Shown here one piece after another: positions 4,374 through 34,019 of a stretch of DNA of 39,021 bases. The notes below the pieces were generated by a model. That model saw only the letters and a list, made by a program, of their open reading frames with translations. It was not told the DNA's origin and ran no database searches. The translations under genes and the position numbers were made by a program. The DNA lies in the NCBI GenBank assembly GCA_030615105.1, contig JAUWZV010000007.1, positions 1-39,021 of the forward strand, written 5' to 3'. Origin of the DNA: Desulfobacteraceae bacterium (GTDB lineage Bacteria; Desulfobacterota; DSM-4660; Desulfatiglandales; B25-G16). The first letter of the stretch is position 1. The number at the start of each line of letters is the position of its first letter.

Positions 4374-4379
4374 AAGCGA

Positions 4380-5135
4380 TCAAAGTAAGCCCTTTTCCTT
4401 ACGCTCACTCTTACTAAATTGGGCCCTTATTAGGAGTATATCAAATATAGATAAATCAATAGGTGGGTTTACTGTAATGTCCTTTATTATATATTCCTCT
4501 GTAATGGCCCCTTTATATGAAAAGGCGATCTGGTAAGGATACCATGTTTCTTCTGTGAGCTGCCTGTAATCGGAAAAATGGAAAAGAAAATCACCATATT
4601 TTAAAAGCAGGGGGAAAAATAGGTCTTTATCAACAAGAATGGAGGGATTTCCCTCTTCTTTCTCCCCAATCAGGTATGCTATTCTCCCATGAAACCTTGT
4701 TAGGGATACCTTTTCGAGGTTTATACCTATATCTTTAAGTATTTCCAATAGTCGTTTTGGGTTTTGGGCTAAAAGAAGAAAACGATATAGAAAATCCTGG
4801 CTTTCCCTGTCATAGGCAATCCCTCCATTGATAATTCTCAAGGTTCTTGAGCCGTTATGGATTATGAGGCGTTTACCTGGTTCACCTGCAATCTCTGATC
4901 TATATAGGTAAGGAGACATAAGATAGATGGACTCTCCAAAAACCTTTTCTATTTCCTGATTTAGGCCCTTAAGTTTTGTAAGTTGTATTATATGTAATGT
5001 ATTTATAGTGGCGAATTTATTGGTCATAATCTCGATAATCTGAGCTGGGGGGAGTATATAGGCTTGTCCAATTGACGGTAAAATAACTATAATAATTAAA
5101 GATAGCACGATCAGGAAGTTTGATATCTTTGCCAT
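4380..5135 (-). CDS. outer-membrane lipoprotein-sorting (LolA-like) protein with signal peptide
   Basis: N-terminal hydrophobic signal; 'IIHNGSRTLRIINGG...LVDKDLFFPLLLKYGD' pattern of LolA-like proteins. Confidence 0.55.
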   Translation of the reverse strand: MAKISNFLIVLSLIIIVILPSIGQAYILPPAQIIEIMTNKFATINTLHIIQLTKLKGLNQEIEKVFGESIYLMSPYLYRSEIAGEPGKRLIIHNGSRTLRIINGGIAYDRESQDFLYRFLLLAQNPKRLLEILKDIGINLEKVSLTRFHGRIAYLIGEKEEGNPSILVDKDLFFPLLLKYGDFLFHFSDYRQLTEETWYPYQIAFSYKGAITEEYIIKDITVNPPIDLSIFDILLIRAQFSKSERKEKGLL

Positions 5136-6400
5136 ACCTCCTCCATCTGGAGAACCAATTCCTTAAACATCTCCCTATCTTTTCTGCCCAATATAGAGGC
5201 AGGGGGAGATTTAATCCTGAGAGGATTTATAAACCTTCCCCTTTTACTTACACTAAAGTCAAGATGGGGGCCCGTTGACAGCCCGGATGAACCTACGTAA
5301 CCTATAACATCACCTTGCCTGACCCTTGAACCTTTCCTGAGACCTTTCGCAAACCTTCTAAGATGCCCGTATCCAGTTTCATATATATGATTGTGCCTTA
5401 TTCTTATGTAACGTCCATACCCTCCCTTCCATCCAATAAAGACTACCCGGCCATCTCCTACAGACTCCACTGGTGTTCCAATTGGGGCTGCATAATCAAC
5501 GCCATAGTGGGGTCTATAAATCTTCAAAATTGGATGAAATCTCTTTAAAGAGAAACAAGAGCTGATCCTCCTATAGCTTAGGGGGGATTTCAAAAAGGCC
5601 TTTCTTAGGCTTTCCCCATTCCTGTTGTAATAGCATGATCTACCTTCAGAATCGGTAAAATAAAAGGACTCAGAAATCCTGTTCTGATTGACAAACCTGA
5701 CTGCATGTACCTTTCCATGGCCTATACATTTCCCTTTCCTGTAGTACTTGGTAAGAATTACCTGAAAAGTATCTCCAGGCCTAATATCAGCTAAGAAATC
5801 TATATCCCATGCAAAGATATCGGCAATCTCCATGATAACGTCAGATGGTATCCCCCTATCAATGGCCGATTGGTAAAATGAATTAGATACCTCTCCATTA
5901 GTTATGGTTATAATGTTTATTTTCGAGTGAGAAACAAGGCTGGGGAGGAAATCAGGGCCATTCCTTATTATATGGAGGGTCTTGTATGGTGATAGATGAA
6001 GGGAAATCTTTTCTACTTTTTGGCTCTTTTTATTTAGCCAGATATCGATTATTTGGCCTGCCTTTGTCCTGGATAGATTAAAAAGTGGCCTAATTGCCTC
6101 ATCTATCCGCATGATATTTTGGGCCGAGAGGCCATATCCAGCTAAAAGCTCGTAAAAAGTTTTACCTTTTATAAAGTGTTCCCTTATCCTCTTATGGTTT
6201 AAAAACCAGTTCTGCCGGGATTCAAAATAATCATTGTAACTAACGCGGGTAGATGCAATTAATTCATCTGTGGTTACTTCATCAGCACTTGATTGGAAAA
6301 TGATGATCAAGATTGCAACAATCAAGAAAGTGGTTATGAAAAGGAGAATAATCCTATTCCATTTGAGGGTTGGTGCATTATTTTTAATCTTCCGGTTCAA
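5111..6400 (-). CDS. OapA N-terminal / M23 (LytM) family peptidase
   Basis: N-terminal TM; HYGVDYAAPIGTPVESVGDGRVVFIGWKGGYGRYIRIRHNH...GHLRRFAKGLRKGSRVRQGDVIGYVGSSGLSTGPHLDFSV. Confidence 0.9.
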   Translation of the reverse strand: MNRKIKNNAPTLKWNRIILLFITTFLIVAILIIIFQSSADEVTTDELIASTRVSYNDYFESRQNWFLNHKRIREHFIKGKTFYELLAGYGLSAQNIMRIDEAIRPLFNLSRTKAGQIIDIWLNKKSQKVEKISLHLSPYKTLHIIRNGPDFLPSLVSHSKINIITITNGEVSNSFYQSAIDRGIPSDVIMEIADIFAWDIDFLADIRPGDTFQVILTKYYRKGKCIGHGKVHAVRFVNQNRISESFYFTDSEGRSCYYNRNGESLRKAFLKSPLSYRRISSCFSLKRFHPILKIYRPHYGVDYAAPIGTPVESVGDGRVVFIGWKGGYGRYIRIRHNHIYETGYGHLRRFAKGLRKGSRVRQGDVIGYVGSSGLSTGPHLDFSVSKRGRFINPLRIKSPPASILGRKDREMFKELVLQMEEVWQRYQTS

Positions 6401-6465
6401 TAAGCTTTTCTTTAAATGATGAGATGATTAATTTTTAATTATACTTAATAATTTGATAAAAATAG

Positions 6466-6494
6466 TTGACATATTAATTTCTTTATATTATTAA
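6466..6494 (+). promoter_or_regulatory. candidate sigma70-type promoter (TTGACA-17-TATTAA)
   Basis: TTGACA at 6466-6471, 17 nt spacer, TATTAA at 6489-6494 in a very AT-rich region upstream of ORF 6553. Confidence 0.4.
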
Positions 6495-6552
6495 ATATAA
6501 AAATTATAATATAAATATATTTAATTGTAAACAACTTTGGAGAGGAAAGCTG

Positions 6553-6750
6553 ATGGGTGATTATGTATTTTGCACGAGGAAGAAGAATAATCCCCGAATA
6601 GATGTTCGAATATGCCAGGCGAAATGTCCTTTAAAAGACGAGTGTCCGGAGTTCCTGGCCTATCAAAAGAGGTCTATCGCTCAATCCTCGATCTTGAATT
6701 CGAGATTGATCATATCGCCTCTTTTGAATCCCATGGCATCAAAAAATTGA
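6553..6750 (+). CDS. small Cys-rich protein, function unknown
   Basis: FCTRKKNNPRIDVRICQAKCPLKDECPEF with four spaced Cys; RBS ggagagg and promoter-like sequence upstream. Confidence 0.5.
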   Translation: MGDYVFCTRKKNNPRIDVRICQAKCPLKDECPEFLAYQKRSIAQSSILNSRLIISPLLNPMASKN

Positions 6751-7139
6751 AGAAGGCCCCAATCCCGCCAGTTTACAAAGGTATAAACGGTATCAACACC
6801 CACCTTTTTCATATTGTTGAGCATCTCTTCCATTAACATCTTGGCTACGCCCTTTTTCTGATAAGATGGATCAACTCCGATAGTATCTATCCAGCCAATA
6901 TTCTCTGGCATACCATATTCCCATCCACTTGCATCCCCGAGAATAAAACCGACTACCTTGCCCTCTGTTTCCGCTACGAGAGATGGGAGGGGAGATCTTT
7001 TTTCTGCCATCTCAACCTTTCCTTCCCAGTAATCCGGCCTCCTTTCCCCAAGAACCTTATTGTCTATCTCGATGATTCTCTCAAGATCATCTTCCCTCAT
7101 TACCCTAACAATCGGGAGTTCAGTTGATATGTTTTCCAT
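6681..7139 (-). CDS. GNAT family N-acetyltransferase
   Basis: VVGFILGDAS...WIDTIGVDPSYQKKGVAKMLMEEML acetyl-CoA binding motif. Confidence 0.85.
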   Translation of the reverse strand: MENISTELPIVRVMREDDLERIIEIDNKVLGERRPDYWEGKVEMAEKRSPLPSLVAETEGKVVGFILGDASGWEYGMPENIGWIDTIGVDPSYQKKGVAKMLMEEMLNNMKKVGVDTVYTFVNWRDWGLLQFFDAMGFKRGDMINLEFKIED

Positions 7140-18090: not shown

Positions 18091-18237
18091 ATGGCAAAGC
18101 CGTTAATCCCAATGCCCAAAAAAGAGACAGGAGAAAAGCGAAAGATTCTTTGCTGGAGAGATATTCAGCGACGCCTTAAAGGCCTGTTATCAATTGCCCG
18201 CAAGCGGCAGAGATGTCACTCCCCTTGCTTTTTCTGA
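18091..18237 (+). CDS. candidate 48-aa small ORF, unknown
   Basis: aaggagac RBS directly before ATG; MAKPLIPMPKKETGEKRKILCWRDIQRRLKGLLSIARKRQRCHSPCFF*; read by eye, below the ORF-track cutoff. Confidence 0.3.
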   Translation: MAKPLIPMPKKETGEKRKILCWRDIQRRLKGLLSIARKRQRCHSPCFF

Positions 18238-19273
18238 TCGTAACAGTGTAGTTTTTTCTGATTAGTTCTCCCTGAAAGGCGACAATATTGCCCTCATCAG
18301 GTGCATCAAAGGGACTCCCATTATAGCGATTGAATGGAATAAGGTTTATCTTTGCCCTGATATTTTTTAGGAGTCTTGCCAAGTTTGTAGCATCACTAAG
18401 CCTATCATTAATATCCTTAATAAGGATGTATTCAAATGTAATTCTCCTCCCCCTTGGTAGAGGGAAGCGGGTCAGGGTGTCTATTAATTGCTTTAAAGGA
18501 TATCTACTGTTAATGGGCATAAGGAGGTTCCTGGTTTTATCATCGGCAGCATTAAGAGAAACAGCCAGATTGATAGAAAGTTCTCTCCCGAGTTTTTCTA
18601 TCTCAGGCACAAGACCACAAGTAGAAAGAGTCACCCGGCGGCGGGAAAAATTCAGGCCATCTGGAGAAATTATATTTTTTACTGCCTTTTTTACAGCCGC
18701 GTAATTTTCCAATGGCTCACCCATACCCATCAAGACGATGTTTTTAAGTTTATCTGGTTGATCCATTGATTGTCTGATCTGGATGACCTGGTCTATTATC
18801 TCTGAGCTCTTCAGGTTCCGGGTGAAGCCTTGTCTGGCAGTTAGGCAAAACTTACATCCCATGGCACAACCAACCTGGGACGATATGCAAATTGTATAAT
18901 GGTTCCTCTCAGGAATAAGCACGGACTCAATACTGTTGCCATCCTCAAGTTCAAACAAGAATTTTTTCGTGCCATCAAGAGAGACCTCGGTTTTAGCTAT
19001 TTTTAGCTGGCTTATAATGGCATTTGAGCTGAGATAATTCCTTAACTCCTTAGAGATATTGGTCATTTCCTCGAATGAATCGGTTTGGCAGCCGAATATC
19101 CACTGTCTAATCTGTTCAGCCCGGTAGGGTTCAAGCCCGCGTTTTTCTACCCACTCCTTGGTCTCCTCCAAGTCCATATCCTTTAAATCCAGCTTGGCCA
19201 TCTCAGTTTCATTTATCCTCTGGCCTTTTCCCTCAATCATTATAATTGGTTTTACTGAATGCTGATCCGTCAA
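18176..19273 (-). CDS. rlmN: 23S rRNA (adenine2503-C2)-methyltransferase
   Basis: GCAMGCKFCLTARQGFTRNL, VLMGMGEPLENY, C-terminal SDISAACGQL. Confidence 0.95.
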   Translation of the reverse strand: MTDQHSVKPIIMIEGKGQRINETEMAKLDLKDMDLEETKEWVEKRGLEPYRAEQIRQWIFGCQTDSFEEMTNISKELRNYLSSNAIISQLKIAKTEVSLDGTKKFLFELEDGNSIESVLIPERNHYTICISSQVGCAMGCKFCLTARQGFTRNLKSSEIIDQVIQIRQSMDQPDKLKNIVLMGMGEPLENYAAVKKAVKNIISPDGLNFSRRRVTLSTCGLVPEIEKLGRELSINLAVSLNAADDKTRNLLMPINSRYPLKQLIDTLTRFPLPRGRRITFEYILIKDINDRLSDATNLARLLKNIRAKINLIPFNRYNGSPFDAPDEGNIVAFQGELIRKNYTVTIRKSKGSDISAACGQLITGL

Positions 19274-19756
19274 TAATGTTGCAGAGGATAGTAATTTTTG
19301 TCAAATTAAAATCTTAAGCCCAGCAAGGTCTCTTTAGATTACCTCGGGACTTTTCACCTATGAAATGAAAACTCCTAACCCGAATTCCACGCTCCCAAAA
19401 ATTTTCAGTTGACCACTTTACAGTCTAAGTTATATATTTGGTGGAAAATAACCAAAAATATATTAAATTGAATAAGAGATCAATAATACTTATCTCCCAG
19501 AATGGTCCCTTCTCAAATTTGTTGATAGTGCTGAAATCAATATAACGGCTTTTGGTTTAGAGAGTCAAACGTTTAATACTGGAAATGATCCTGTGCCATT
19601 TTCCGTCATCATCTTTTTGATGTATACCCTCTAACTAGTTAACTTGACTTATGCTTTTAAATTTACATGGCTCATTTCCAGGACGAATTCTGAGGAAAGA
19701 TTTTAGCTGAGCTGAGATGCTCACATTGGGTAGGTTGTTATGAAGGGTTATTAAAA

Positions 19757-21175
19757 ATGGAAAAATCAAAAGCTATAATATTAACTTACTCACCAGAGCC
19801 AAAAAAGACATGTGCAGCAGCAGCTAGAATCTCCACAACCCTGGGGACAGCCACGGAAATCTATGAAAAGACAAATGATGATAATATAGGGAATTTAATA
19901 TCCAAAGTCTTAAGCTCGGGACATAAGTCCTTTATTGAACATGCATATTTCACAATTGCTTTTGAAAATGTGTCCGTTTTTTTAGAAGAGTTCATTATTG
20001 AATTTAGATTAGCCTCGTTTACAGTAAAATCAAGAAGATATGTAGACTTCAGCAATATGGGCTATTATCAGCCTGAGTTCAGATTCTCAAAAAATGTAGC
20101 AGAGAATAAGAAAGAAAAACTTTTAAGAGAGTACAACAATCATATGAATTATCTATTCAGTGAATACAGCTATTTTGTACAAAATGGTATTCCAAAAGAA
20201 GATGCAAGGTTTATTCTCCCATACAGCTACCGAAGCAATTTCTATTGTAGTGTAAATGCAAGGGAATTGCTGCATATTATTTACTCAGCTATTTATGGGA
20301 GAGGAAGAAGATTTCCCGAAATAAAAAATATTGGAAAAAGTCTGTTAGAACAGGCTAAATCGATATTCCCTGATGTTTTTGACCTTTTAGAAACTGTAGA
20401 AAGTGGGAGTGAAGATAAAGAAGAGCGACTGAGAAAACTGTTTGAACAAAAACTTATTAAAGAAAAAGCAACTACCCATCTAACTGAACTAATTTCCTAT
20501 ACTAAAGAACCTGAAGAAATAGTGGTGATTTCAGCTATAGCAAGCAATACGGGATGCAAGACATATATGGCAAAGGAAATAATCGCGAAAGATCGAAACA
20601 TTTTTGATGAAGTCCTGAAGATTATAATGCGAGATAGAAGGAAAAGGGAGTTAGAACAGGCAAATTTCACCTTTAGAATAAACGGCATTTCTTTAGCTGG
20701 GCTTACTCACATAGTAAGGCATAGAATTCATTCAATAATAGTTCCTTCTTTTACCGAATTTGGTAAGAGCGAGGAATATTCAATACCTGATACAATAAGA
20801 GGGACAAAAGGTTATCTGGAGAGATATAATGAAGTCTGGAGGAGAAATAAAGCTGCCTTTAATGATTTTAGAGAAATAGGGGTTCTGAAGGAAGACCTTG
20901 TATATTTATATCTGAGCGGCAATGTACTTGACATCATTACAACTATGAATGGAAGAGAATTATATCATTTTATCCAATTAAGATCATGCAATAGAGCACA
21001 ATGGGAAATCAGAAATATAGCTATTGATATGTTAAAAAAACTCCGAAAGGTTGCTCCTAAATTGTTCGCAGAATATGGCCCTGCATGCTTTATGACAGGA
21101 AAATGTCCGGAAGGAAAATACAGTTGCGGTAGAATGGATGAGATTCGGGAGTTTTTTGGAGGGAACTTAGAATAG
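19757..21175 (+). CDS. thyX: tandem-domain FAD-dependent thymidylate synthase (ThyX-ThyX)
   Basis: N-half SGHKSFIEHAYFTIAFENVS...RLASFTVKSRRYVDFS; C-half HIVRHRIHS...NGRELYHFIQLRSCNRAQWEIRNIA...GPACFMTGKCPEGKYSCGR. Confidence 0.85.
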   Translation: MEKSKAIILTYSPEPKKTCAAAARISTTLGTATEIYEKTNDDNIGNLISKVLSSGHKSFIEHAYFTIAFENVSVFLEEFIIEFRLASFTVKSRRYVDFSNMGYYQPEFRFSKNVAENKKEKLLREYNNHMNYLFSEYSYFVQNGIPKEDARFILPYSYRSNFYCSVNARELLHIIYSAIYGRGRRFPEIKNIGKSLLEQAKSIFPDVFDLLETVESGSEDKEERLRKLFEQKLIKEKATTHLTELISYTKEPEEIVVISAIASNTGCKTYMAKEIIAKDRNIFDEVLKIIMRDRRKRELEQANFTFRINGISLAGLTHIVRHRIHSIIVPSFTEFGKSEEYSIPDTIRGTKGYLERYNEVWRRNKAAFNDFREIGVLKEDLVYLYLSGNVLDIITTMNGRELYHFIQLRSCNRAQWEIRNIAIDMLKKLRKVAPKLFAEYGPACFMTGKCPEGKYSCGRMDEIREFFGGNLE

Positions 21176-21329
21176 GAAGATGGCTTTTGAAATAATTTAG
21201 AGTGGCCACTATATGATCGGGCAGCAATCCCTTCTAACAGTTGTGTCTCGCTTGATCGGGAATGCCATACACCGGGACTTAAATTCACAGTCCAAATTCT
21301 CTCTTTTGCCAAGGTCAAATTGCGACAAC

Positions 21330-21923
21330 ATGGACGGTAAACTGATTGTAATTGAAGGCGTAGATAAAGCTGGAAAAACTACCCAAATATTGAAAATAAG
21401 TAACTGGCTCAATTCACAAGGGATTCTAAATCTTATATCAAGTGAACTAACAACACCAATTGGCCCTTTTATTCGTGCCAATCTAGGATGTTCAACGTTT
21501 ACAGCGGCAATAAAAGCTATGCTCTTTGCCGCAGATCGATTGTACAGGTTTCAAGTCGAGGTTGAACCTTCATTAAAGTCAAATGTCAATGTTCTTGCGG
21601 ATCGGTGGGTTCTTTCATCGCTTGCATATCAAGGTGTCGAGGGTCTTGATTCCAAATTCATTCTTGCACTTAATGCCTTAGTTAGGTCTCCAGATCTTAT
21701 TATTTTAATAGATATTGCCCCTGATGAAGCGTGGCGACGTGGCCAAATAGAGGAGGAACCAATACAGTATAGTTTACCATTTTTAAAAAAGGTACGGCAG
21801 AAATATGTTGATTTAGCTAAGAAATCTCAAATACCCATAATAAACGGTATGCAGTCGCCCGAAATCGTATTTTCGGAAATAATTCAGGTCATTTATACAA
21901 ATCTGGGTAAGTTCGATATCTAG
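21330..21923 (+). CDS. tmk: thymidylate kinase
   Basis: MDGKLIVIEGVDKAGKTTQ P-loop, LFAADRLYRF, ADRWVLSSLAYQG; start trimmed from 21213 to ATG at 21330. Confidence 0.8.
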   Translation: MDGKLIVIEGVDKAGKTTQILKISNWLNSQGILNLISSELTTPIGPFIRANLGCSTFTAAIKAMLFAADRLYRFQVEVEPSLKSNVNVLADRWVLSSLAYQGVEGLDSKFILALNALVRSPDLIILIDIAPDEAWRRGQIEEEPIQYSLPFLKKVRQKYVDLAKKSQIPIINGMQSPEIVFSEIIQVIYTNLGKFDI

Positions 21924-21986
21924 TTTCAATATTCGGTGATTTTGATGGTGATGGTTCGCAAAATCAAAAGCTCCATCAAAGCTTTT

Positions 21987-23648
21987 TTAGTTAGCTTTCG
22001 ACTTCTGATTTTTAAACAGTATGCTGACTAACAACTGTACAGCAGCAACTAAAACTGTGAAGCCTAAGTTTATTAACTGTGAATAAGCACCATATAATAT
22101 TACGCCTGCAGTTATCAAAAGAGCTGTAATAATAGTGTATTTTAGGAATTTTTGAAGGCTTCCTTTTGTTTTGTGCCAAAAGGCAATGATCATAAGAGTT
22201 ATGATTACTGAAATAAAAATTTGGCCTGCTACAGATAGTGGAGGAATGAGGTAGTTCTGAGGAATGGGATAATTCAATACGAGATACCAATACACTCCTT
22301 GGATAAGTAAAATGTATATAATTTTTATGTGCCGATTCATATCGTTAAGTTGATCGGAGTAATTCATCTTTTTCTGCAGTTTGTTTGTTTCCATAATACT
22401 CGAATGAGTAGCTCTTACCTGATTATCAATCTTGACTAATTTTGTTTCGATTTCATTCACCGCCTGTTCAACTTTATTAACGCTATGGTGGATCTCTAAC
22501 ATCGAACCCATAGAACTAGCTCGGCTTATGAATTCCATCAGGCATGTTGCATTATGACAAAGTTCAAAAATTGTGCCTCGTGCATCTCCCGGATAACGCC
22601 ATAAACCTGTATTAGGATCTTGTGCTTTGACAATTTCAAAAATGGCTCTCAACATCACAGGAAGATAAGGACTCAACCCTGATCGAAGAAGAGTAGTTAA
22701 TACGATGGGTTTTGGATGAAATATGTAAGTTGCACGTCGGCCGTTGACTTCATAGACCATTGTAAGTGTATTGGACCACTGATTAGGATTTTCTATGAGG
22801 TAACTAATCCCTCTTTCTACCAGATTTCTAGAATTTTCGTTTCCCACAGAAAGTAGAGCCAACAAAGCATGAGCTGTATCCCATGGATCGCTATTTCCGT
22901 CCTTGAATTCTCTTCCCCAGCCCCCATCTGTTGGATTATTTGCTTCACAAAGCCAGGTTATTGCATCTTTTAGAGGTTTTGCAACAAAATCAAGCTCCAG
23001 AGGTTCTCGGGCTTGTAATACTGCAAGGGTGTGAATGACTAAAGATGTTACGTATATAAAAGCCCGAATTTCTTTTCGGGGTCCCCAAGATGAATCTTCC
23101 TTTTGCTGGCTAACTAACCAGTGGGCAGCTTTGATGGCTTCAGGGGAATTCAGCCCTAAATAACCAGATTCAAATAGCTGATAGAGGCAGTAGCAGGTCG
23201 GTTCTGCCAAGATAACATCTGGTATTGAAGCCATTGGCCATCCACCAACAGGTGTTGTACCTGTTGAGTCCTCCACAAAACGCTTTAAGACCGTATCAGC
23301 AGCTGTCCGCAGATCAGGATAAGTTGGGCTTGTACGACTCAAAAGCCCTACCGCATACGCCGAACTACTTATTCCAATTTTTTTTTCATCAAGATAATGG
23401 TACCATCCGACTTCATTATTTTTCCGAACAACTCGTTTTTTTAACGCATCAGTTGATTGTTTAAGCCGTAATTTTATAAGATAGACTACATCGAAAAAAA
23501 TTCTCCCACTGAAATTACCATTAGATATACAATCAAAACAAACTGAAACCCCAGGCCTTAGAAGGTATGTTTCATACTCTGAAACTGGACGTTGGCACGA
23601 TGAACAAATTACTTGAACATCTTTTTGAGACGTGTGTTCGTCTGGCAT
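21987..23648 (-). CDS. ClpX-like zinc finger + prenyltransferase/squalene-oxidase-repeat alpha-toroid + C-terminal transmembrane helices
   Basis: CSSCQRPVSEYETYLLRPGVSVCFDC; repeats with GGW/GGWG (VGGWPMASIPD, DGGWGREF...DPWDTAHALLAL); hydrophobic C-terminal third. Confidence 0.7.
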   Translation of the reverse strand: MPDEHTSQKDVQVICSSCQRPVSEYETYLLRPGVSVCFDCISNGNFSGRIFFDVVYLIKLRLKQSTDALKKRVVRKNNEVGWYHYLDEKKIGISSSAYAVGLLSRTSPTYPDLRTAADTVLKRFVEDSTGTTPVGGWPMASIPDVILAEPTCYCLYQLFESGYLGLNSPEAIKAAHWLVSQQKEDSSWGPRKEIRAFIYVTSLVIHTLAVLQAREPLELDFVAKPLKDAITWLCEANNPTDGGWGREFKDGNSDPWDTAHALLALLSVGNENSRNLVERGISYLIENPNQWSNTLTMVYEVNGRRATYIFHPKPIVLTTLLRSGLSPYLPVMLRAIFEIVKAQDPNTGLWRYPGDARGTIFELCHNATCLMEFISRASSMGSMLEIHHSVNKVEQAVNEIETKLVKIDNQVRATHSSIMETNKLQKKMNYSDQLNDMNRHIKIIYILLIQGVYWYLVLNYPIPQNYLIPPLSVAGQIFISVIITLMIIAFWHKTKGSLQKFLKYTIITALLITAGVILYGAYSQLINLGFTVLVAAVQLLVSILFKNQKSKAN

Positions 23649-23659
23649 TGCTTAGCTCC

Positions 23660-25150
23660 TCACTGGCTAATGCTAAAGTTGGTGTGGACAGCAGGTTCGT
23701 GACTTTCACGAGCAAGACCAAAAGGAAATGATTGGACACCGGCCTCCAAAACCTGCTTGATAAAATCTTTGTAGCTGACCCCTGGTGCAAAATATCCAAA
23801 CCTGCGCTGATAGTAATATTCTTCGGCGGTCTGGAATTCTTGTTCCCAATCATGAGCGATTTCCATAATATCAAAATATGTGTAGTAACGGCTGACATTT
23901 ACTGGAGTTAAGTGGCGGCGAAGCCATACTTCATCTTCAACCAAGGATCCACCAGACCCAGCAATAATCTGTTGCATTCTGTCCATTCCTTCTATTCCCG
24001 GATACATCATTAGAGGATATGCTGAAATTGCTCCTATGGTATCACGATGCGCATCTAAAAAAGCTTTGGTTTCTGATATGGTATCAGGAGATTCTCCAGC
24101 ATAAAATAAAATATTAACTTTGGCAAAAATTCCTTTTCTCCTTAGAGCTTTTAATAACTTCGAGGCTTTTGATAAGTACCTATTAGGATTGGGAGTTTTA
24201 TTCATTAATCTAAGCATGTAAGGCGAAGCAGTTTCAAGTCCAAGATCGATAATGCGCAGACCACAATCCCATAAAAGTGACACGTAACTGGGTGGAATTA
24301 CATCAACACGAGTTTCGGTCCGCCAAATCGGGCTGATTCCCATTTTTGAAAACATTGAATGCAATCCCATAAGATATTTATGTGAAGCCAAAAAAACCGG
24401 AGTTTCAAGATACATGGGTAATGAATCTGTATTGTATGATTCACATACAGATTTAATTTCAGTCGAAAGACTTTTAGGCGAACGCCTTCGGAAACTAATG
24501 TTGGTTGAGACGCAGAAAGAACATCCAAAAGGACACCCTCTCGCAAACTCAACGCTTGCTGGAAATTCCTTAAGCTCTGGATATATAGAATAGTCTAATG
24601 TTGGTAACGTTGTGAGTTCGCTATTCGAGTATCTAGGAAGTGGCATTTCGCGCGTTACTACACTAGGAATTTGGGTAATTGGCTCGCCATCATCTAGCGT
24701 CTTCAGAATTTGTAGCATGGGTAGCTCGCCTTCCCCGCAAACAACTGCATCTAGAGCACTGCACTCTTCCAAGGCCCTAGCAGGGATTTCTCCTACATGA
24801 TGCTGGCCACCAGCAATCAAGTTAGCCTTGGGTAGCAACCTTCTTGCAATTCGTGCCCACTTTAACAAATAAGGATATGAAAACCCCGTAAGGCAAGAGA
24901 ATCCAATCACATCCCAACGGTCGGATAGCAATATTTTTTGATATTGATGTTCTTTTTGCTCAACATTTTGCCAAAGCTGTGGATCGAAAAGTTGCACGTG
25001 GTGGCCGTATTCTTTCAGAATAGATCCGATCGCGAGGATGCCATAATTTGTCCCTCTTTGAAAGGAAAGACGTCCAAAATGTGCCCTTTTTCCACGCTCT
25101 GACGGTAGATTGATTAGCAATATTCTCATGTTTTTCTCAGATGAAGTCAT
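23660..25150 (-). CDS. B12-binding-domain radical SAM protein
   Basis: MRILLINLPSERGKR...GILAIGSILKEYGHHVQLFDP; VEFARGCPFGCSFCVST (CxxxCxxC); YAGESPDTISET. Confidence 0.85.
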   Translation of the reverse strand: MTSSEKNMRILLINLPSERGKRAHFGRLSFQRGTNYGILAIGSILKEYGHHVQLFDPQLWQNVEQKEHQYQKILLSDRWDVIGFSCLTGFSYPYLLKWARIARRLLPKANLIAGGQHHVGEIPARALEECSALDAVVCGEGELPMLQILKTLDDGEPITQIPSVVTREMPLPRYSNSELTTLPTLDYSIYPELKEFPASVEFARGCPFGCSFCVSTNISFRRRSPKSLSTEIKSVCESYNTDSLPMYLETPVFLASHKYLMGLHSMFSKMGISPIWRTETRVDVIPPSYVSLLWDCGLRIIDLGLETASPYMLRLMNKTPNPNRYLSKASKLLKALRRKGIFAKVNILFYAGESPDTISETKAFLDAHRDTIGAISAYPLMMYPGIEGMDRMQQIIAGSGGSLVEDEVWLRRHLTPVNVSRYYTYFDIMEIAHDWEQEFQTAEEYYYQRRFGYFAPGVSYKDFIKQVLEAGVQSFPFGLARESHEPAVHTNFSISQ

Positions 25151-25649
25151 AACCGCAATGACCGCTTACTCGTTACCCTCTTAATTTGTGCCAAATTCAA
25201 TATTTCGTATGAACTGCCAAAAATAAACAGATTAGGGCGTACTCTAGCTTCACCCTTATTCTCAAATCTTATTGTTCTGCATCCTGAGTTTTGCACATCC
25301 AAGACCTGATGATCCTCTCGAGTGCGAAATAGCGCGGATTAGGATTCAGCAAATGATTGTGGAATGAGCCAACAAGGAAAACCTGTTCATGCATAATATA
25401 CTGGATTAATTAATCTACTTAAAAATAGGCGCTTTGCCATGCCAAATTAATAATCTTGAAAGCAATATCAAATAACAAAACCTTCCTTAAGGCATATAAA
25501 CTATATTTGAGATATTATTATGGGTCAAGTCTAAACTACTTTTAAGAGCTTTAATTAATTATGCAAACTGCATCATGAGATGTATGACAGTTAGTCAAAC
25601 TCTATCATGCCCTTTGCGAAGAATGATTAAAGAAAAAAGACAGTCAGCC

Positions 25650-26054
25650 AGAAACCGACAAAGTTGAACAGTTAATAGGCATAGAGCTTCCTGAAGGAGA
25701 TTTTAAGATCCTCAAAGAACAAAACAAGGAGCAGGGAAAAACCAAATACGAAACCAGCAAAACAGAAATCAGAGAACTGATAAAAACGTTTTATGAAAAG
25801 CGCTACAAGCGTGGGGCATCCTGTCTTAAAAACTTTCTGACCGCCTATTTAGCCACATTGAACTCTGGCTGAAGGCAAGGGTAATTGCTCCAAACAAAAT
25901 ATGTCCACTGGAACGGGTATTTAGAGAAATCGGTCATCGTCTTAAGAGAATAGCTTGTGATTGGTCTGATGAAGCCGTAACCAATATTTTTAAAATCATC
26001 ATGATACGGCTGTACCCCAGAGATAAATTGGAGGAATACTGGAAAGAAAAATAA
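25650..26054 (+). pseudogene. decayed, frameshifted transposase C-terminal remnant (probable)
   Basis: frame 1: SQPETDKVEQLIGIELPEGDFKILKEQNKEQ...KRYKRGASCLKN; shift near 25846 to FSDRLFSHIELWLKARVIAPNKICPLERVFREIGHRLKRIACDWSDEAVTNIFKIIMIRLYPRDKLEEYWKEK*. Confidence 0.5.
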
Positions 26055-26445
26055 GGTATCAAGGGCTACTCCGATATCCAGATTGTATCGATCACAGCAT
26101 AAAGCCGAATCTTTTGAACGAAAAGGTTATTGACTGCAAAGCCTTTTATAAGATTCAAGCTACCATTGCCTGCGGAGCAAAAGGATGCACGATAAAAAGC
26201 TGGGGGTCATGAGTTCGCCAAAGGGGCATTATTTCGGCTTTTGGCTACTGAAGCTTTTTTCTTTTTCCGCACTGAGGAGTAAGGTCTAGCAACTAGAAAG
26301 ATGAAAAGATGTTTCCAGAACCTCTTGACGTTTCAAATTGAAATCAGTAGAATTCCAATTACAGGGAGCTTCAAGGAATTTATCTAGAGAAATAAATTGA
26401 ACCAAGTAAAAAACAAAGAACCATTAAATATATCAGTTGGCTTAG

Positions 26446-27495
26446 ATGATTGGTATTGATTTATTCGCTGGGGCAGGAGGCATGGCTCTTGGTGCAGTCC
26501 AAGCGGGAGTTGATGTACGCCTTGCGATAGAGGCAGATTCCTATGCTGCTGCAACTTATAGTCACAATCATCCAACAGTAAAGGTTCTGGTAGAGGACAT
26601 AAGGAATGTAAGAGAAATCAAGATTTCAAGCAGAGAAAAGAGCGGAATTCTTTTTGGCGGCCCCCCATGTCAAGGCTTCTCTACATCGAACCAAAGGACC
26701 AGAACTTTGGACAATCCTCATAACTGGCTTTACCTAGAGTTCATGCGAATTGTCAAGCTGTGGAAGCCAGATTGGGTGGTTTTTGAGAACGTCAAAGGAA
26801 TCAAAGAAACAGAAAAGGGTGTCTTCCTAAACCGGTTGCTCAAAGAGCTTTTTTGCTCTGGGTACACGACTGCGTGGTGGATTCTTAATGCAGCTGACTT
26901 TGGTGTGCCGCAAATGCGATCTCGGCTTTTTGTCCTTGGCTCGCTACATGGAATTATCCTTGACAGGCCAAAGCCTAAAGTGTCAGAATACGTGACGGTT
27001 CGACAAGCAATAGACGATTTACCAGATCTTCCCAACAGTGCTTCATTTAGTTCAATGCCATATAAGTCCAAACCCCGATCTGAATATGCTCAGATGATCC
27101 GCGGAAGGTTAAAGAAGTCTCCCAATCACTTTGTGACAAGAAATGCCCAACATATAGTCCGGCGATACAAATACGTACCTCAAGGCGGCAATTGGAAGAA
27201 TATTCCGACTAGGCTTATGAAAAATTACGCCGACCGCACCAGGTGCCATACAGGCATATACTACCGTCTTCGAGAAGATGCCCCGTCAGTTGTCATCGGA
27301 AACTATAGAAAGAACATGTTAATTCATCCGAAGCAAGACCGCGGGCTTTCAGTGCGGGAAGCGGCAAGACTCCAATCTTTTCCAGATTGGTACGAATTCA
27401 AGGGGTCAATTGGTTTTCAACAGCAGCAGGTAAGCAACGCGGTTCCGCCCTTGCTGGCAAGGGCAGTATTCGAAACTATCCTTAAATCCATGTAA
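26446..27495 (+). CDS. dcm: DNA (cytosine-5-)-methyltransferase
   Basis: motif I IDLFAGAGGM, motif IV GGPPCQGFSTSN, motif VI FENVKG, QVSNAVPPLLARAV. Confidence 0.95.
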   Translation: MIGIDLFAGAGGMALGAVQAGVDVRLAIEADSYAAATYSHNHPTVKVLVEDIRNVREIKISSREKSGILFGGPPCQGFSTSNQRTRTLDNPHNWLYLEFMRIVKLWKPDWVVFENVKGIKETEKGVFLNRLLKELFCSGYTTAWWILNAADFGVPQMRSRLFVLGSLHGIILDRPKPKVSEYVTVRQAIDDLPDLPNSASFSSMPYKSKPRSEYAQMIRGRLKKSPNHFVTRNAQHIVRRYKYVPQGGNWKNIPTRLMKNYADRTRCHTGIYYRLREDAPSVVIGNYRKNMLIHPKQDRGLSVREAARLQSFPDWYEFKGSIGFQQQQVSNAVPPLLARAVFETILKSM

Positions 27496-27555
27496 AAATG
27501 AGCAGGTAGTAGAATTATAAAACGATATTGAATTGCAGGCTAATGATCGTCAGCT

Positions 27556-28569
27556 ATGTGGGAACTTCGTAAAATAGAGGAAATCACAAAAAAAGCTTTG
27601 GTTGAAGAGCGAGGAGTGGTTCAAGGAGAGGAGAAATTTGCGGCATATACTATGGCCCGAAAGAATCTCGTTGAACAAGTATTGCCCGAAATAAAAGCCG
27701 TCCAGCCACAGCTTACCGACCATGGCCCTGACCACGTGGCAAATGTGCTAGATAATGCTGAGGGACTCTTGGGAGAAGACATTCATAAATTCAGGGGCAT
27801 AGAGTTGTACTGCCTGATTCTTTCAATTCTTTTTCATGACGCTGGAAATGTTTTCGATCGAAAAGAACACCAGCTTAATATCGCTAAGATTTATGATTAT
27901 ATTCGGCCAGGTCCAGAGCCTAACAAGCAAGAAAAATATATCGTACTAAAGGCCACAGAAGCTCATTGCTGTGAGGCTGGCGATGGATCTAAAGATGCTC
28001 TTAGGGATCTGGATGATACGACTCAGCTGGATCGCAAGCCCGTCAGTTTGCGTCAAATTGCTGCTATACTTAGATTTGCTGATGAATTAGCCGAGGGCCC
28101 GCAGAGAACATCTATCTTTATGCAACGCCAGCATAAGTATTCATCCGACAGCCAGATTTTCCATAAATATGCCAAAATAACGAATGTGTCTATTGACCGA
28201 GGTAATGAGCGTATTGCTTTGACGTATAATATAGACGTAGACATTGATGAGCATAGTTCTCTAAGCAATGAAAAAGAGGAGGAACTTCGTGAGCTTCTTG
28301 ATTTCACGTACAAGCGCATCATCAAATTAAATCAAGAACGGCAGTATACAAAACACTATTGTGATTTTCTGTCTCCATTCAAAAAAACAACAGTAGCTTT
28401 TAACTTTTGGATAGATGGCCAACATAACGATTTAGGTTTGGTTCAAGTTTCGCTTACAGATCTAGTGGTGCCCGGGGATACTCATAAAGGGTTTTACGAG
28501 TATGATCGCTCTTACGAGCTAAAGAACATTGTGGAAAAAATCCGTGAATGTTTAAAGATGAGCTTTTAA
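27556..28569 (+). CDS. HD-domain metal-dependent phosphohydrolase, conflict-system type
   Basis: TDHGPDHVANVLDNAEG, LILSILFHDAGNVFD, AAILRFADELAE: H...HD...D signature. Confidence 0.75.
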   Translation: MWELRKIEEITKKALVEERGVVQGEEKFAAYTMARKNLVEQVLPEIKAVQPQLTDHGPDHVANVLDNAEGLLGEDIHKFRGIELYCLILSILFHDAGNVFDRKEHQLNIAKIYDYIRPGPEPNKQEKYIVLKATEAHCCEAGDGSKDALRDLDDTTQLDRKPVSLRQIAAILRFADELAEGPQRTSIFMQRQHKYSSDSQIFHKYAKITNVSIDRGNERIALTYNIDVDIDEHSSLSNEKEEELRELLDFTYKRIIKLNQERQYTKHYCDFLSPFKKTTVAFNFWIDGQHNDLGLVQVSLTDLVVPGDTHKGFYEYDRSYELKNIVEKIRECLKMSF

Positions 28570-28678
28570 CAGCATGAGAGGATTATGGAAAAAATTAGAG
28601 ATTTTTTCGGATTAGGTTTTCACGGCGGCAGAGGATTATGAAAATAATTCGGAAATTTTTATGGACGAGGTCTTTAAA

Positions 28679-30421
28679 ATGATAGACTACTTTAATCCAT
28701 TTGAATATGAAGCTGCAAACAAATTTACGGTAGACCAGATTCTCGATTTCTATATTGAGGATTATAATTATTCACGCTTTATTCGTTCGAGGCGAAATAT
28801 CTTTTTGGTGGGCGAGCGAGGTACTGGAAAGACAATGACTCTTCTCTATAACTCTCTACCTGTGCAGCAGATAAAAGCGGACAGGGAAAGGCGGCCCATA
28901 GGCCTTGACCTCATTTGTGTTTATATCCCGTGCAACACGCCGTTAACTCATAAGAGGGAATATCAGTTGCTTGATGATTTTCCGGCGTCTGTCGTTAGTG
29001 AACATTTTTTTGTCCTCTCTATTATGCATGCAATCGCTAATACACTCTCAAAGGTCCCAAGGTTGCTTGAAGATGCTAATGAGACTCAGCTTAGGGAGGA
29101 TCTCGAATTAGTTTTGGACACGAAGTTGCAAAGCGACCGTTCATTTTTTGAGGGCCTGAAGATGATGTTGCAAAGGGAGGTAACGAAAGCGCAGAAAGCA
29201 ATTAATGCCAAAACAGCAGATGCATTTTATGAGAATGCAATATCATTTTCAGCCGGTGTGATGCCGCTAGTTACTTGTCTTAAAAAGATTCCAAGTCTTG
29301 AAAAGTCTCATTTTGCCTTAATGCTTGATGATGCCCATGATCTGAATCCTCATCAAATCAAAGCGTTAAACTCATGGATTGCTTATAGAGATAACACTAT
29401 ATTCAGCTTCAAAGTTGCTACAACAAAGGTATACCGGCCGTCTTTTTTGACAGCATCCGGGGGGCAGATTCTTGAGGGACATGACTTTACAATGGTAGAT
29501 ATGGAGCAGCCCTATCAAAGCCAGTACTCAAACTTCGGAAAGCTGGCCCGGCAAGTCGTACAGCGGAGGCTCATAAAGATAGGTGTCTCAAAAACCTCTG
29601 AAAAGTTTTTCCCTGCCAACCCTAATTTTGAAAAGGATATCGAGGCATCCAATGAGTTAGCTAGAAAAGAGGCCGAAAGGAAGTTCCCGAATGGTACACC
29701 AAAACAGATATCGGATTATGTATACAAGTACGGGCGAGCAGAATATTTCCGACAGCGCTCCACAAGAGCTAATTTGGCACCGTATTCAGGATTTGATATT
29801 TTAGTTCATTTGTCTACAGGCGTTATAAGAAATCTTTTGGAACCGTGCTATTGGATGTACGACAAAGTCATATCAGATAAGCATGCTAAAACAACAGAGT
29901 TTACACATGTTGATGAGATCCCACATTCCGTTCAAACGAATGTGATATTGGATAGGAGCAAGCGAAAGTGGGAATGGATCAGGGAAGGGTTGGACAAAAG
30001 CATCGAAGGATGTTCCCGAGAGCAGGCCAAGCAACTGTATCAATTATTTGATAACTTGGCCGTTCTTTTCAGGGAACGATTATTAAAACACAAGTCTGAG
30101 CCACGTGCTATAGCCTTCACAATTTCAGATATTGATTATCAATACTATCACGAACTTGAGCACCTATTGGAGATTGCGCGTAAGGCCCAAATCCTCTATA
30201 CTTATACAAGCTCGGCCAAGGACTCTGGGAAAAGGGAAATATACTATGTGCCAAATAGGGTGCTTTGGCCTGATAGGGGGCTTGATCCACATGGCCAGCA
30301 TGCTAGAGTGTCATTAAAGGCACGTCACTTATGGGCAGCAGCAACTGATAACCGAAAAATACCGTTTAGCGAGAGAGATGAAAAAGAAAAACAACAGCGA
30401 GGATTGTTTGATGAGCTATAG
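28679..30421 (+). CDS. ORC/CDC6-like AAA ATPase
   Basis: FLVGERGTGKTMTLLYN Walker A, FALMLDDAHDLNPHQIKAL Walker B; alternative start 28661. Confidence 0.75.
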   Translation: MIDYFNPFEYEAANKFTVDQILDFYIEDYNYSRFIRSRRNIFLVGERGTGKTMTLLYNSLPVQQIKADRERRPIGLDLICVYIPCNTPLTHKREYQLLDDFPASVVSEHFFVLSIMHAIANTLSKVPRLLEDANETQLREDLELVLDTKLQSDRSFFEGLKMMLQREVTKAQKAINAKTADAFYENAISFSAGVMPLVTCLKKIPSLEKSHFALMLDDAHDLNPHQIKALNSWIAYRDNTIFSFKVATTKVYRPSFLTASGGQILEGHDFTMVDMEQPYQSQYSNFGKLARQVVQRRLIKIGVSKTSEKFFPANPNFEKDIEASNELARKEAERKFPNGTPKQISDYVYKYGRAEYFRQRSTRANLAPYSGFDILVHLSTGVIRNLLEPCYWMYDKVISDKHAKTTEFTHVDEIPHSVQTNVILDRSKRKWEWIREGLDKSIEGCSREQAKQLYQLFDNLAVLFRERLLKHKSEPRAIAFTISDIDYQYYHELEHLLEIARKAQILYTYTSSAKDSGKREIYYVPNRVLWPDRGLDPHGQHARVSLKARHLWAAATDNRKIPFSERDEKEKQQRGLFDEL

Positions 30422-31292
30422 CGGTGCTATAATAATGGTGGCAAGCTGGGAAGAACGCTTCCTGTTCGGATTTCAAAGATGGATAAACCAGTCGCCTCCA
30501 GCAAATGCTCTGATGTATTACTACGAAGAATATGCTAAGGAAACGGAAAAAAACCGGACACAAGTTAATAAACTCTGTGAACAAAAAGACCTGCCACTGA
30601 ATGAATATAAACTGTCCTTCAATGATCCAGCCAGATCGTGGAAAGTGCTATATGAAACCATAAAAGTGTCTGAAATGGCTGGAAAAAGAGTTACTGTTGA
30701 TATTACAACTATGCCTCGGGAAACCATTTGGACAGTCCTTGACTTGCTCGAGGAAGTCGGTGCAAGAGTTGCTTACGTTTATCAAAAACCAGAACGTTAC
30801 AATACGGAATGGCTTAGTCGGGACCCAGGCAGACCACGTCTAGTTTATAAATTGGCAGGCATAGCACAGCTGGGCGCACCGACTAAGCTAATAATTCTGA
30901 CGGGGTATGATCTCGATCGAGTAAAACAGTTAATTGCCTTCTTCGAACCCGAACTTAGTTTTCTTGGCATCCAGGTGGGCGACCAATTTTATAATCAGTC
31001 TTTGAATGTTGAGAAGCATAAGAAAGAGTTTGGGAGTGATCCTGGAGTAAAACTCTTCGACGTAGATGCTTACTCGAATGACCAAGGATTCAATATAATC
31101 GAAGAACAAATTAAGTCTCATCTGGAGCATTCAAACTTTATAATGAGTTCATTAGGCCCCAAACCTTCGGCAGTCGCCCTTTATCGGCTACACAAGCTTC
31201 ACCCAGAAACCGCCCTTGCATATGCACCTTCCGGAGAGTTTAATCCAGAGTACTCTTATGGGATTGGCGAACCAGTTGTAGGCCAACTCTAG
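30411..31292 (+). CDS. Rossmann/CARF-like protein of unknown function
   Basis: MSYSGAIIMVASWEERFLFGF...VTVDITTMPRETIWTVLDLLEEVG...LIILTGYDLDRVKQL...IMSSLGPKPSAVALYRLHK; ATG at 30411 overlaps the ATPase stop by 11 nt. Confidence 0.5.
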   Translation: MSYSGAIIMVASWEERFLFGFQRWINQSPPANALMYYYEEYAKETEKNRTQVNKLCEQKDLPLNEYKLSFNDPARSWKVLYETIKVSEMAGKRVTVDITTMPRETIWTVLDLLEEVGARVAYVYQKPERYNTEWLSRDPGRPRLVYKLAGIAQLGAPTKLIILTGYDLDRVKQLIAFFEPELSFLGIQVGDQFYNQSLNVEKHKKEFGSDPGVKLFDVDAYSNDQGFNIIEEQIKSHLEHSNFIMSSLGPKPSAVALYRLHKLHPETALAYAPSGEFNPEYSYGIGEPVVGQL

Positions 31293-31427
31293 CTCAGATG
31301 CCAAGAGGTCCTTCTATGAGACCCAAGGCCTGTGAACGATCTTGGCCCAAAGTAGTTCAGCGGCCATGATCTGTGGCTTAAAAAGGCACACGGCTCTTTA
31401 AAGAATGTTCACGGCATATGCCAGAAT

Positions 31428-31838
31428 ATGGACAACCTAAGCAAAGAACAACGGTCATACTGTATGTCCCGTATTCGGGCCAAGGATACCATGCCTGAAT
31501 TGATAGTGCGGCGTATAGTCCATCGACTAGGTTACAGGTTTAGGCTGCATCGTCGTGACCTGCCCGGCTGCCCAGATATTGTTCTTCCGCGGCATAGAAA
31601 AGCAATATTTGTTCATGGTTGTTTCTGGCATATGCACAGTTGTCGATATGGCCAGGTGGCGCCAACAACAAATCGAAATTATTGGGGAAGGAAACGAAAA
31701 GGAAATGTCCAGCGTGACCAGGAAGAGCTACGAGCATTAAGACACCTTGGGTGGAAAGTTCTAATTGTGTGGGAATGTTGGACGAAAGATGTTCCGACAC
31801 TTGAGCGGCGTGTCCAACAGTTCTTGACTAACATTTAA
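31428..31838 (+). CDS. vsr: very short patch repair endonuclease
   Basis: MDNLSKEQRSYCMSRIRAKDTMPELIVRRIVHRLGYRFRLHRRDLPGCPDIVLPRHRKAIFVHGCFWHMHSC. Confidence 0.95.
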   Translation: MDNLSKEQRSYCMSRIRAKDTMPELIVRRIVHRLGYRFRLHRRDLPGCPDIVLPRHRKAIFVHGCFWHMHSCRYGQVAPTTNRNYWGRKRKGNVQRDQEELRALRHLGWKVLIVWECWTKDVPTLERRVQQFLTNI

Positions 31839-32025
31839 GGGTTTAAATGAGGTCGATATAATTACCGAAGTCTGATTTGAAGGGACATGATACTTAGTAG
31901 CCTCTAAATCTTAAGGAATTTCGTGAGGCTGAGGTCAATGATGGTAGACGTTGATTGCTATGATGAATTACTTAAGCGTAACGTTTTGTAATGAACTTGA
32001 GCCAGCAAAAATGATCGAGGCGAAT

Positions 32026-32355
32026 TCACGGATAATCTGCACTAGTGGAAGCAATGACATCGTTACCCAACTCATTCAGCACCGTCCCTTTGGACACCGT
32101 AAGGTACAGCAGGTATTGATCCAGGTAATCATTGGATACAGGATTAGGCATACCGAGAGCAGGGGGGATGTCAGGTAAAAGTGGTCTTACACCTGGAAAC
32201 TTTATGTGTACAGTTATATAATCAAACTCAAGCCTTTTTTGCCCCTCATAGCTTCCCCTATCTATTATGTATGTTCTGCCCTTTTCAAGTATCTGGTAAA
32301 CACACTGGAACCAGGCATCCGGCAGGTCCCTTGCCTCGATAAATTCAAGTTGCAT
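32026..32355 (-). pseudogene. thyA: 5' fragment of a ThyA-type thymidylate synthase
   Basis: MQLEFIEARDLPDAWFQCVYQILEKGRTYIIDRGSYEGQKRLEFDYITVHIKFPGVRPLLPDIPPALG...YLDQYLLYL resembles the N-terminal part of ThyA-type enzymes of deltaproteobacteria/archaea; no downstream catalytic half present. Confidence 0.6.
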
Positions 32356-32588
32356 CTCTTTCTATCCCCTAAATAGTGGTGTTAATTATTTTAAAATCTT
32401 GCTGCTTTTTAATCAATTTTATCTTTGCTTATACCTTATTCAGACTGAATTTTGTTGAGATCTTTGCATAACCTTCAAATTACCATCATCTCATTTAATA
32501 TTAAGTCATGCAAAGTCTCTAGATGTTATAGTGTCTAGATAAAAAGGATATTTTTCAGATTATGGAAAGAAGATTATAAGAGGTGGTA

Positions 32589-34019
32589 TTATTTTTTTAA
32601 GATCCTTTTCAGGATCTCGTTGACAAGTCTGGGATTTGCCTTTCCTTTTGTTTTTTTCATCACCTGACCAACAAAAAAACCTAATAACTGTTCTTTGCCC
32701 TCTTTATATTTAGCCACCTGTTCGGGGTTCCCTTTTAAAACCTGCTCAATAATAGCGGAAATCTCTGCTTCATCGGAGATCTGGATCAATCCCTTATCCT
32801 TTACAATTGCCCTGGCTGATCTTCCTTCTCTGTACATCTCTTTAAATACATCTTTACCTATCTTACCACTGATTGTTTCATCTTTTATCATTTTTAGAAG
32901 TTCAGTGAGTGCTGAGGGGCTTACTGGATAATCCTCTATCTCCCTATCATCACCCTTTAATTCTCTTAAAAGCTCGCTCATAATCCAATTACTGACCATT
33001 TTTGCATCGCCTGTTTCCCGAGCACAAAGTTCAAAGTAATCAGTCAATTCTATGGAAGATGTAAGCACTTCTGAATCGTACTTTGGTAATCCATACTGAT
33101 CCATAAAGCGTTTCATCTTTTCATCAGGGAGTTCGGGAAGTCTATCCCTGATAGCATCGAGCCATTCTTGATCTATAACTAATGGGAGAAGATCCGGTTC
33201 CGGAAAATACCTGTAGTCGTGGGATTCCTCCTTGCTCCTCATGGGATAAGTTTTTCCTTCATTCTCATTCCAGAGCCTGGTTTCCTGAATAACCTCTTGA
33301 CCGCTTTCCAGGATATCCAGTTGTCTTTTAATTTCATATTCAAGGGCCTTCTGCACATGCTTGAATGAATTCATATTTTTCAGCTCCGTTCTTGTACCAA
33401 AGCCCTTCATCCCTTTTCGCCTTAATGATAGATTAGCATCACATCTGAAGCTTCCCTACTCCATGTTCCCACTTGAGATACCAAGATAGCGTAAAATGGA
33501 ACGCAGTTTTTTTAGATATGTTACTGCCTCTTCAGTGGAGGAAATATCTGGTTCACTAACGATTTCTATTAAAGGCACGCCACAGCGATTGAAATCTATA
33601 TAACTTAAGCCTTCTGCATCATTATGGATAGATTTTCCTGCATCTTCTTCAAGATGTATCCTGGTAAGACCTATCCTTTTTATCCCCTGATTTGTTTCTA
33701 TCTCAATCTGACCATGTTCAGCTAAGGGGAGCTCATATTGGGATATCTGATATCCCTTTGGAAGGTCTGGATAAAAGTAGTTTTTCCTTGCAAAACGGCT
33801 CTCTGTTGCTACCTGACAATGTGAAGCCAATGCCATCATCAAGGCATGCTCTACTGCTTTTTTATTCAGCACAGGTAGAATTCCAGGAAGTCCAAGACAT
33901 ATAGGGCATGTATGTGTATTTGGTTCTGCTCCATAGGTGGTAGAGCAGCCGCAAAATATCTTGCTTGCAGTCTTTAGCTGGGCATGAACCTCCAGGCCTA
34001 TAACTACATCGTAGTCCAT
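32589..34019 (-). pseudogene. gatB: aspartyl/glutamyl-tRNA amidotransferase subunit B, interrupted by one in-frame TAG at 33456-33458
   Basis: [25 protein letters not shown]...[44 protein letters not shown]; both ORFs in the same frame. Confidence 0.9.

Follow-up and report, generated by a model that had tools for sequence, protein, structure and literature searches.

A mobile, methyltransferase-linked cassette of HD-CE, ORC-CDC6-like ATPase and CARF6 genes as a candidate antiphage system with a predicted nucleotide-targeting effector

The window analyzed here is a 39,021-nucleotide stretch of DNA from a Desulfobacteraceae bacterium (assembly GCA_030615105.1, contig JAUWZV010000007.1, positions 1 to 39,021), and our subject is a cassette of five genes that begins with a DNA methyltransferase gene (dcm) and ends with a mismatch endonuclease gene (vsr). 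Inspection of the open reading frames (ORFs) of the window showed all five to be intact and arranged in tandem on the plus strand:

26446..27495, plus strand: Dcm, C5-cytosine DNA methyltransferase, the modification component (349 amino acids; PF00145, E 1.9e-64)
27556..28569, plus strand: HD-CE phosphohydrolase, predicted nucleotide-targeting effector (337 amino acids; PF24391, E 9.1e-25)
28661..30421, plus strand: ORC-CDC6-like AAA+ ATPase (586 amino acids; PF24389, E 7.6e-99)
30411..31292, plus strand: CARF6-family protein, predicted sensor (293 amino acids; PADLOC CARF6 PDLC01917, E 3.9e-29)
31428..31838, plus strand: Vsr mismatch endonuclease, accessory (136 amino acids; TIGR00632, E 6e-42)

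A preliminary description of the same DNA had listed these closely packed genes as a candidate undescribed defense system without a classical restriction endonuclease; no restriction endonuclease family was found among the proteins, Vsr being the only nuclease. The ATPase start given there, the ATG at 28679, suits the alignments better than 28661. The CARF6 ORF overlaps the ATPase stop codon and has an alternative upstream ATG at 30378. By eye, some 45 bp (agaggattatg...aattttt) were seen to be imperfectly duplicated in the HD-ATPase intergenic region (28570-28660).

The HD and ATPase domains belong to conflict-type families already curated in Pfam, so these parts are not new. In the HD protein the residues H56, H60, H94, D95, H137 and D176 are invariant across nine homologues, and an AlphaFold2 model (predicted local distance difference test score, pLDDT, 84.8) has the HD domain of PPX/GppA and cyclic-nucleotide phosphodiesterases as its nearest folds in the PDB. 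The Walker A (GERGTGKT) and Walker B (LMLDD) motifs of the ATPase are kept in all full-length relatives. Neither protein gave a PADLOC match even at E<=10 (PADLOC v2.0.0). The fourth protein, described earlier only as Rossmann-like, has no Pfam family, and its homologues also match the PADLOC CARF6 profile, with E values down to 1e-94. Its AlphaFold2 model (pLDDT 89.5, predicted template-modeling score 0.90) does consist of two Rossmann-type (CARF) halves in a tandem CARF fold, and the Foldseek matches include Can1 (6sce, query TM-score 0.59), Csa3, Cam1 and Csm6. By profile and model the protein is thus a CARF6-family member and predicted sensor, which may bind a cyclic or linear oligonucleotide. 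Foldseek matches of the same model to cation-chloride cotransporters were discarded for their low TM-scores and root-mean-square deviation of about 17. Sequence searches of the PDB with the HD, ATPase and CARF6 proteins gave no convincing solved relative. The earlier remark that the three central genes were not recognized as a named system is supported in PADLOC for the HD and ATPase proteins; both families are, however, already in Pfam, and CARF6 is catalogued.

Homologue searches were run separately for each protein. Co-occurrence of the three central genes in other genomes, raised in the preliminary description, proved widespread, both among themselves and with Dcm. Dcm, HD-CE, ATPase and CARF6 were found together at 13 distinct loci, which is more than chance (the window, L014, L015, L016, L017/L034, L020, L022, L023, L024, L025, L026, L028 and L029), in Desulfobacterota, Poribacteria, Alphaproteobacteria, Bacteroidota and viral contigs. 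A tblastn search of 72,556 plasmids with the ATPase returned five records, four of them with the gene order Dcm, HD-CE, ATPase, CARF6 (Agrobacterium L014, Yoonia L015, R. leguminosarum L016 and Spirosoma L017/L034). The same four plasmids headed the Dcm search of this collection at 47-58% identity, with the next at 39%, and three of the four were recovered with the HD protein. Among the 2.9 million viral contigs of IMG/VR, eight contigs closely matched a Dcm alignment (L022-L029, of which L026 and L027 are nearly the same), and each of them carries the HD, ATPase and CARF6 genes; four ATPase alignments gave the same eight and L040. Scans with Dcm only and with the ATPase only thus recovered nearly identical sets of records. 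In plasmids, MAGs and viral contigs, Dcm homologues of at least 46% identity are linked to HD-CE, ATPase and CARF6. Vsr is also present in the cassettes L022, L024 and L028. On genome contigs a single ATPase query found nothing and a two-sequence ATPase alignment found three loci; a metagenome-assembled genome (MAG) of Poribacteria (L020) carries the full four-gene set, and Bryobacterales L021 has CARF6, Dcm and an ATPase gene that ends at the contig edge. No ATPase relative was found in the phage collection. Within the phylum, 395 genomes yielded a close Dcm only in the window genome and Desulfovibrio (E below 1e-180; next 2e-81). That this Dcm clade is exclusive to the cassette was ruled out by L071, where a Dcm of 48% identity, grouping with the cassette Dcms and not clearly outside them, lies beside HATPase_c_3 and Z1 proteins of a GHKL/Z1 restriction-type system.

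Across the 13 loci mean identity was 52% for Dcm, 32% for the ATPase, 27% for the HD protein and 26% for CARF6. The distance matrices of the last three correlate with one another (Mantel r 0.89, 0.77 and 0.90, each p 0.0002). Because these distances correlate while those of Dcm correlate poorly, the HD-ATPase-CARF6 trio behaves, as far as sequence divergence can tell, as one unit. Dcm appears to be conserved but loosely coupled to the trio, or exchanged.

Relatives outside the 13 loci differ in the genes that accompany the ATPase and CARF6. In the effector position PRTase-CE replaces HD-CE in L012, L018, L074 and L076, each with ORC-CDC6-like and CARF6 genes, and a calcineurin-like phosphoesterase does so in L075, a plasmid of Agrobacterium fabrum where a calcineurin-like phosphoesterase, an ORC-CDC6-like ATPase, CARF6 and the flavin-dependent thymidylate synthase ThyX stand in a row (1450-6861). 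The methyltransferase position holds an unrelated C5 enzyme in L012 and an N4/N6-type enzyme in L076 (by Pfam) and L018 (by its SPPY and DPFSGSGT motifs); that of L074, annotated "DNA methyltransferase", was counted as N4/N6-type. In Desulfovibrio (L010/L019) ThyX, Dcm and the ATPase are followed by a CARF6 fused to GNAT acetyltransferase and S-adenosylmethionine (SAM) methyltransferase domains (3865-6300), with what looks like another effector attached to the shared core. In the window's phylum, three genomes (L013, L035 and L036) carry SIS/HAD-like, PRTase-like, ORC-CDC6-like ATPase and CARF6-like genes, with the PRTase identity read from motifs only, and at L013 a kinase-like gene follows. 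These exchanges among loci point to a fixed ATPase-CARF6 core around which the methyltransferase and the effector appear to be exchangeable.

The cassette also moves as a whole. Two related phage contigs, L039 and L046, have flanks that are 86-87% identical around an exchanged segment, which holds Vsr-Dcm-HD-ATPase-CARF6 in L039 (4938-10464) and Vsr-HD-ATPase-CARF6-Dcm-ThyX in L046 (7370-14093). The ATPases of the two segments are about 34% and the Dcms about 48% identical. Since whole cassettes were swapped at one site, Vsr and in one case ThyX are members of the unit. L040 is located behind a phage tail tube gene. Other copies adjoin defense genes: BREX brxA-brxB-brxC-pglX at L022, AbiEii at L015, ThsB-like and PD-T4-2/NsnA-like genes at L020, and PDC-M01A at L016. 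The cassette is evidently a mobile module, with copies on phages, plasmids and chromosomes alike. The earlier proposal of a defense system gains from the copies beside BREX, AbiEii and ThsB-like genes and from the movement as a unit between phages; the roles it assigned, with Dcm marking self, the ATPase sensing and the HD enzyme acting on nucleotides, stay predictions.

The five-gene composition given earlier was incomplete, as it missed a recurrent thymidylate synthase. ThyX is adjacent to or near 8 of about 20 ATPase-CARF6 loci (the window, L010, L014, L016, L018, L022, L026 and L028), all found without ThyX as a query; in L010 it lies 22 bp upstream of Dcm. Gene density gives a rough background of 0.7% per locus, and even a generous 5% leaves p ~3e-6, in a sample that includes rhizobial plasmids related to one another and thus not wholly independent. 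Of the 72,556 plasmids 240 carry ThyX. Five further ThyX plasmids were examined: the ORC-CDC6-like/CARF6 pair adjoins ThyX in three (L074, L075 and L076), in L072 its neighbor is the PADLOC candidate pair PDC-M65A/B, and L073 is similar by gene sizes. ThyX is, by gene neighborhood, a recurrent sixth component of the cassette, and its association with defense genes on rhizobial plasmids may be a more general one.

In the window ThyX and the cassette lie on one island, delimited by comparison with the same-genus relative G395:

19202..32099, no strand: acquired island of 12.9 kb in place of about 490 bp, from an RlmN-like gene to the thymidylate synthase gene
19757..21175, plus strand: ThyX flavin-dependent thymidylate synthase in the island (TIGR02170, E 8.3e-58)
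21213..21923, plus strand: thymidylate kinase (Tmk) next to ThyX in the island (PF02223, E 3.1e-34)
32029..32355, minus strand: the host's own ThyA-type thymidylate synthase, which the island cuts off after codon 88 (orthologue comparison)

The flanks of the island (18186-19201 and 32100-32370) are collinear with the relative at 92-94% identity (blastn, L078/L085 against the window). Codons 1-88 of the thyA remnant (32355-32092, minus strand) are 91% identical to the 217-amino-acid G395 orthologue, which itself matches PF00303. Continuation of the remnant elsewhere was rejected, as neither the remainder nor another copy occurs in the genome, which is 81% complete. The island ThyX was not found in the 30 relatives searched, and a search for terminal repeats at the island ends found none. 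The window genome is a fragmented MAG, so an assembly error at the island is possible, though a single contig holds both flanks in collinear order. For its supply of thymidine monophosphate (dTMP) the host may rely on the island. The truncated housekeeping gene that the preliminary description placed at one end of the cassette is this ThyA-type gene. Its decayed transposase at the other end was not confirmed: no intact ORF of transposase size lies upstream of the cassette, and this upstream stretch occurs only once in the genome. Just past the thyA remnant, a frameshift around 33410-33456 divides gatB (window 32589-34019), which is not truncated; G395 keeps only a remnant at this position.

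No named system in PADLOC v2.0.0 matches all core genes, and no paper naming this gene set was found in the literature searched; supplementary tables elsewhere may list some of the loci. The nearest relatives are systems with CE effectors. The HD-CE (PF24391) and PRTase-CE (PF24390) families of nucleotide-targeting effectors, with the ORC-CDC6-like family (PF24389), reportedly come from work by Nicastro et al. in Nucleic Acids Research (2023), and the classification of CARF domains including CARF6 from Makarova et al. in the same journal (2020). With CE-effector systems the window shares an HD-CE protein with an intact HD motif and an adjacent same-strand ORC-CDC6-like ATPase above the Pfam cut-off, and PRTase-CE relatives share the ATPase-CARF6 pair, but in the present cassette the trio is linked to a single C5-methyltransferase clade and Vsr, and often to ThyX. 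Degradation of free nucleotides by the window effector would be a further likeness. Profile match and tandem CARF fold place the fourth protein with CARF6 sensors, whereas the Cas10 and CD-NTase proteins of type III CRISPR and cyclic-oligonucleotide antiphage signaling (CBASS) are absent from the five cassette genes. Classical type II restriction-modification systems likewise have a PF00145 methyltransferase, but lack of a restriction endonuclease family sets the cassette apart from them. The GHKL (MORC/MutL-like)-Z1 restriction-modification system of L071, with Dcm and Vsr, uses the same Dcm clade; in the window an ORC-CDC6-like ATPase, CARF6 and HD protein stand in place of GHKL, Z1 and nuclease. 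BREX and SspABCDE combine DNA modification with an ORC/Cdc6-clade ATPase (PMC12839542, PMC10853773), a logic that the cassette shares without any PglZ, BrxX/BrxC or Ssp homologue; the PADLOC BREX profiles (BrxC/PglY, PglX, PglZ) did not match the HD, ATPase, CARF6 or Vsr proteins. Clover consists of CloA, an HD dGTPase activated by dTTP, and the nucleotidyltransferase CloB (PMC12265719). It resembles the cassette in its HD-fold nucleotide hydrolase effector and its link to thymidine nucleotides, but the five genes include no nucleotidyltransferase and have the ATPase, CARF6 and Dcm instead.

We lean towards reading the cassette as a mobile, modification-linked conflict system, most likely antiphage, with a restriction arm that would be directed at the nucleotide pool and not at DNA. 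Dcm would methylate host DNA and so mark self. The ORC-CDC6-like ATPase, CARF6 and HD-CE would form one co-evolving complex, in which the ATPase, by analogy with the ORC/Cdc6-clade ATPases of BREX and Ssp, would engage incoming, unmethylated or replicating DNA and CARF6 would gate the complex via a nucleotide-type ligand. The HD enzyme would then hydrolyze nucleotides and starve replication of the invader; we infer this activity from the family name, the fold, its replacement by PRTase-CE or calcineurin-like enzymes in relatives, and the Clover precedent. Vsr would repair the T:G mismatches provoked by Dcm, and ThyX, in the unit or beside it, would remake dTMP, by which the host would be protected or restored. 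Antiphage function, the HD substrate, the CARF6 ligand, gating by methylation and the part played by ThyX are thus all predicted. More tentatively, the whole may be seen as a form of restriction-modification: the methyltransferase would define self, the ATPase and CARF6 would detect non-self replication, the restriction arm would destroy the nucleotide pool in place of DNA and a dedicated thymidylate synthase would be the recovery enzyme, with methyltransferase and effector slots that can be swapped around the fixed ATPase-CARF6 core.

Several observations weigh against the proposed modification-linked system. The distances of Dcm correlate weakly with those of each trio member (r 0.19-0.34). 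The HD model is closer to the HD domains of PPX/GppA and phosphodiesterases than to deoxynucleoside triphosphatases in the PDB. As a source of the CARF6 ligand, neither a nucleotide cyclase such as Cas10 nor a CD-NTase occurs among the cassette genes, and searches of the 81%-complete genome for SMODS and Cmr2 gave no match. An HD gene is missing at L010, where Dcm, ATPase and CARF6 are present, and L040 has only the ATPase and CARF6. Finally, no methyltransferase is in view at L013, L035 and L036, so gating by methylation cannot be universal.

In the main rival the trio would be an abortive system triggered by a signal: CARF6 would sense a nucleotide made or perturbed by infection, and Dcm and Vsr would only stabilize the element or form an addiction module, without methylation gating. 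The ligand-sensor fold of CARF6 and the co-divergence of the trio apart from Dcm fit this, as does the Clover HD dGTPase, a precedent for an HD effector answering thymidine nucleotides (PMC12265719). The preliminary description had thought it worth looking for the triad without Dcm and Vsr; trio-like sets with no methyltransferase in view do exist at L013, L035 and L036, with a PRTase-like gene (by motif) rather than HD. The recruitment of three unrelated types of DNA methyltransferase to the ATPase-CARF6 pair stands against it and suggests that modification itself matters, and we regard this rival as rather unlikely. Much less probable is a scheme in which HD-CE is a phosphodiesterase that destroys the CARF6 ligand as an off-switch while the ATPase or an unrecognized activity acts on DNA: the HD model does resemble cyclic-nucleotide phosphodiesterases and PPX/GppA, but the PRTase-CE or calcineurin-like enzyme in the HD slot of relatives looks more like an interchangeable effector, and Vsr supplies the sole nuclease domain. 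Equally improbable is maintenance of the element, with an island that captures thymidylate synthesis to make itself essential and with Dcm and the trio as competition or addiction genes of no antiphage role, since the breakage of a ThyA-type gene by an island bringing ThyX and Tmk and the recurrence of ThyX near homologues are set against many cassettes without ThyX, defense-island neighbors and the phage exchange site.

If the modification-linked reading is true, the cassette would join two branches of immunity that are usually separate, self-marking of DNA and nucleotide depletion, and CARF6 would gain a setting outside CRISPR. It would also raise the testable question of whether methylation status gates a nucleotide hydrolase via an ORC-type ATPase, for which the two exchanged phage cassettes are ready-made minimal units. 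The recurrence of ThyX beside three different nucleotide-targeting effectors was unexpected and points to dTMP as the relevant pool.

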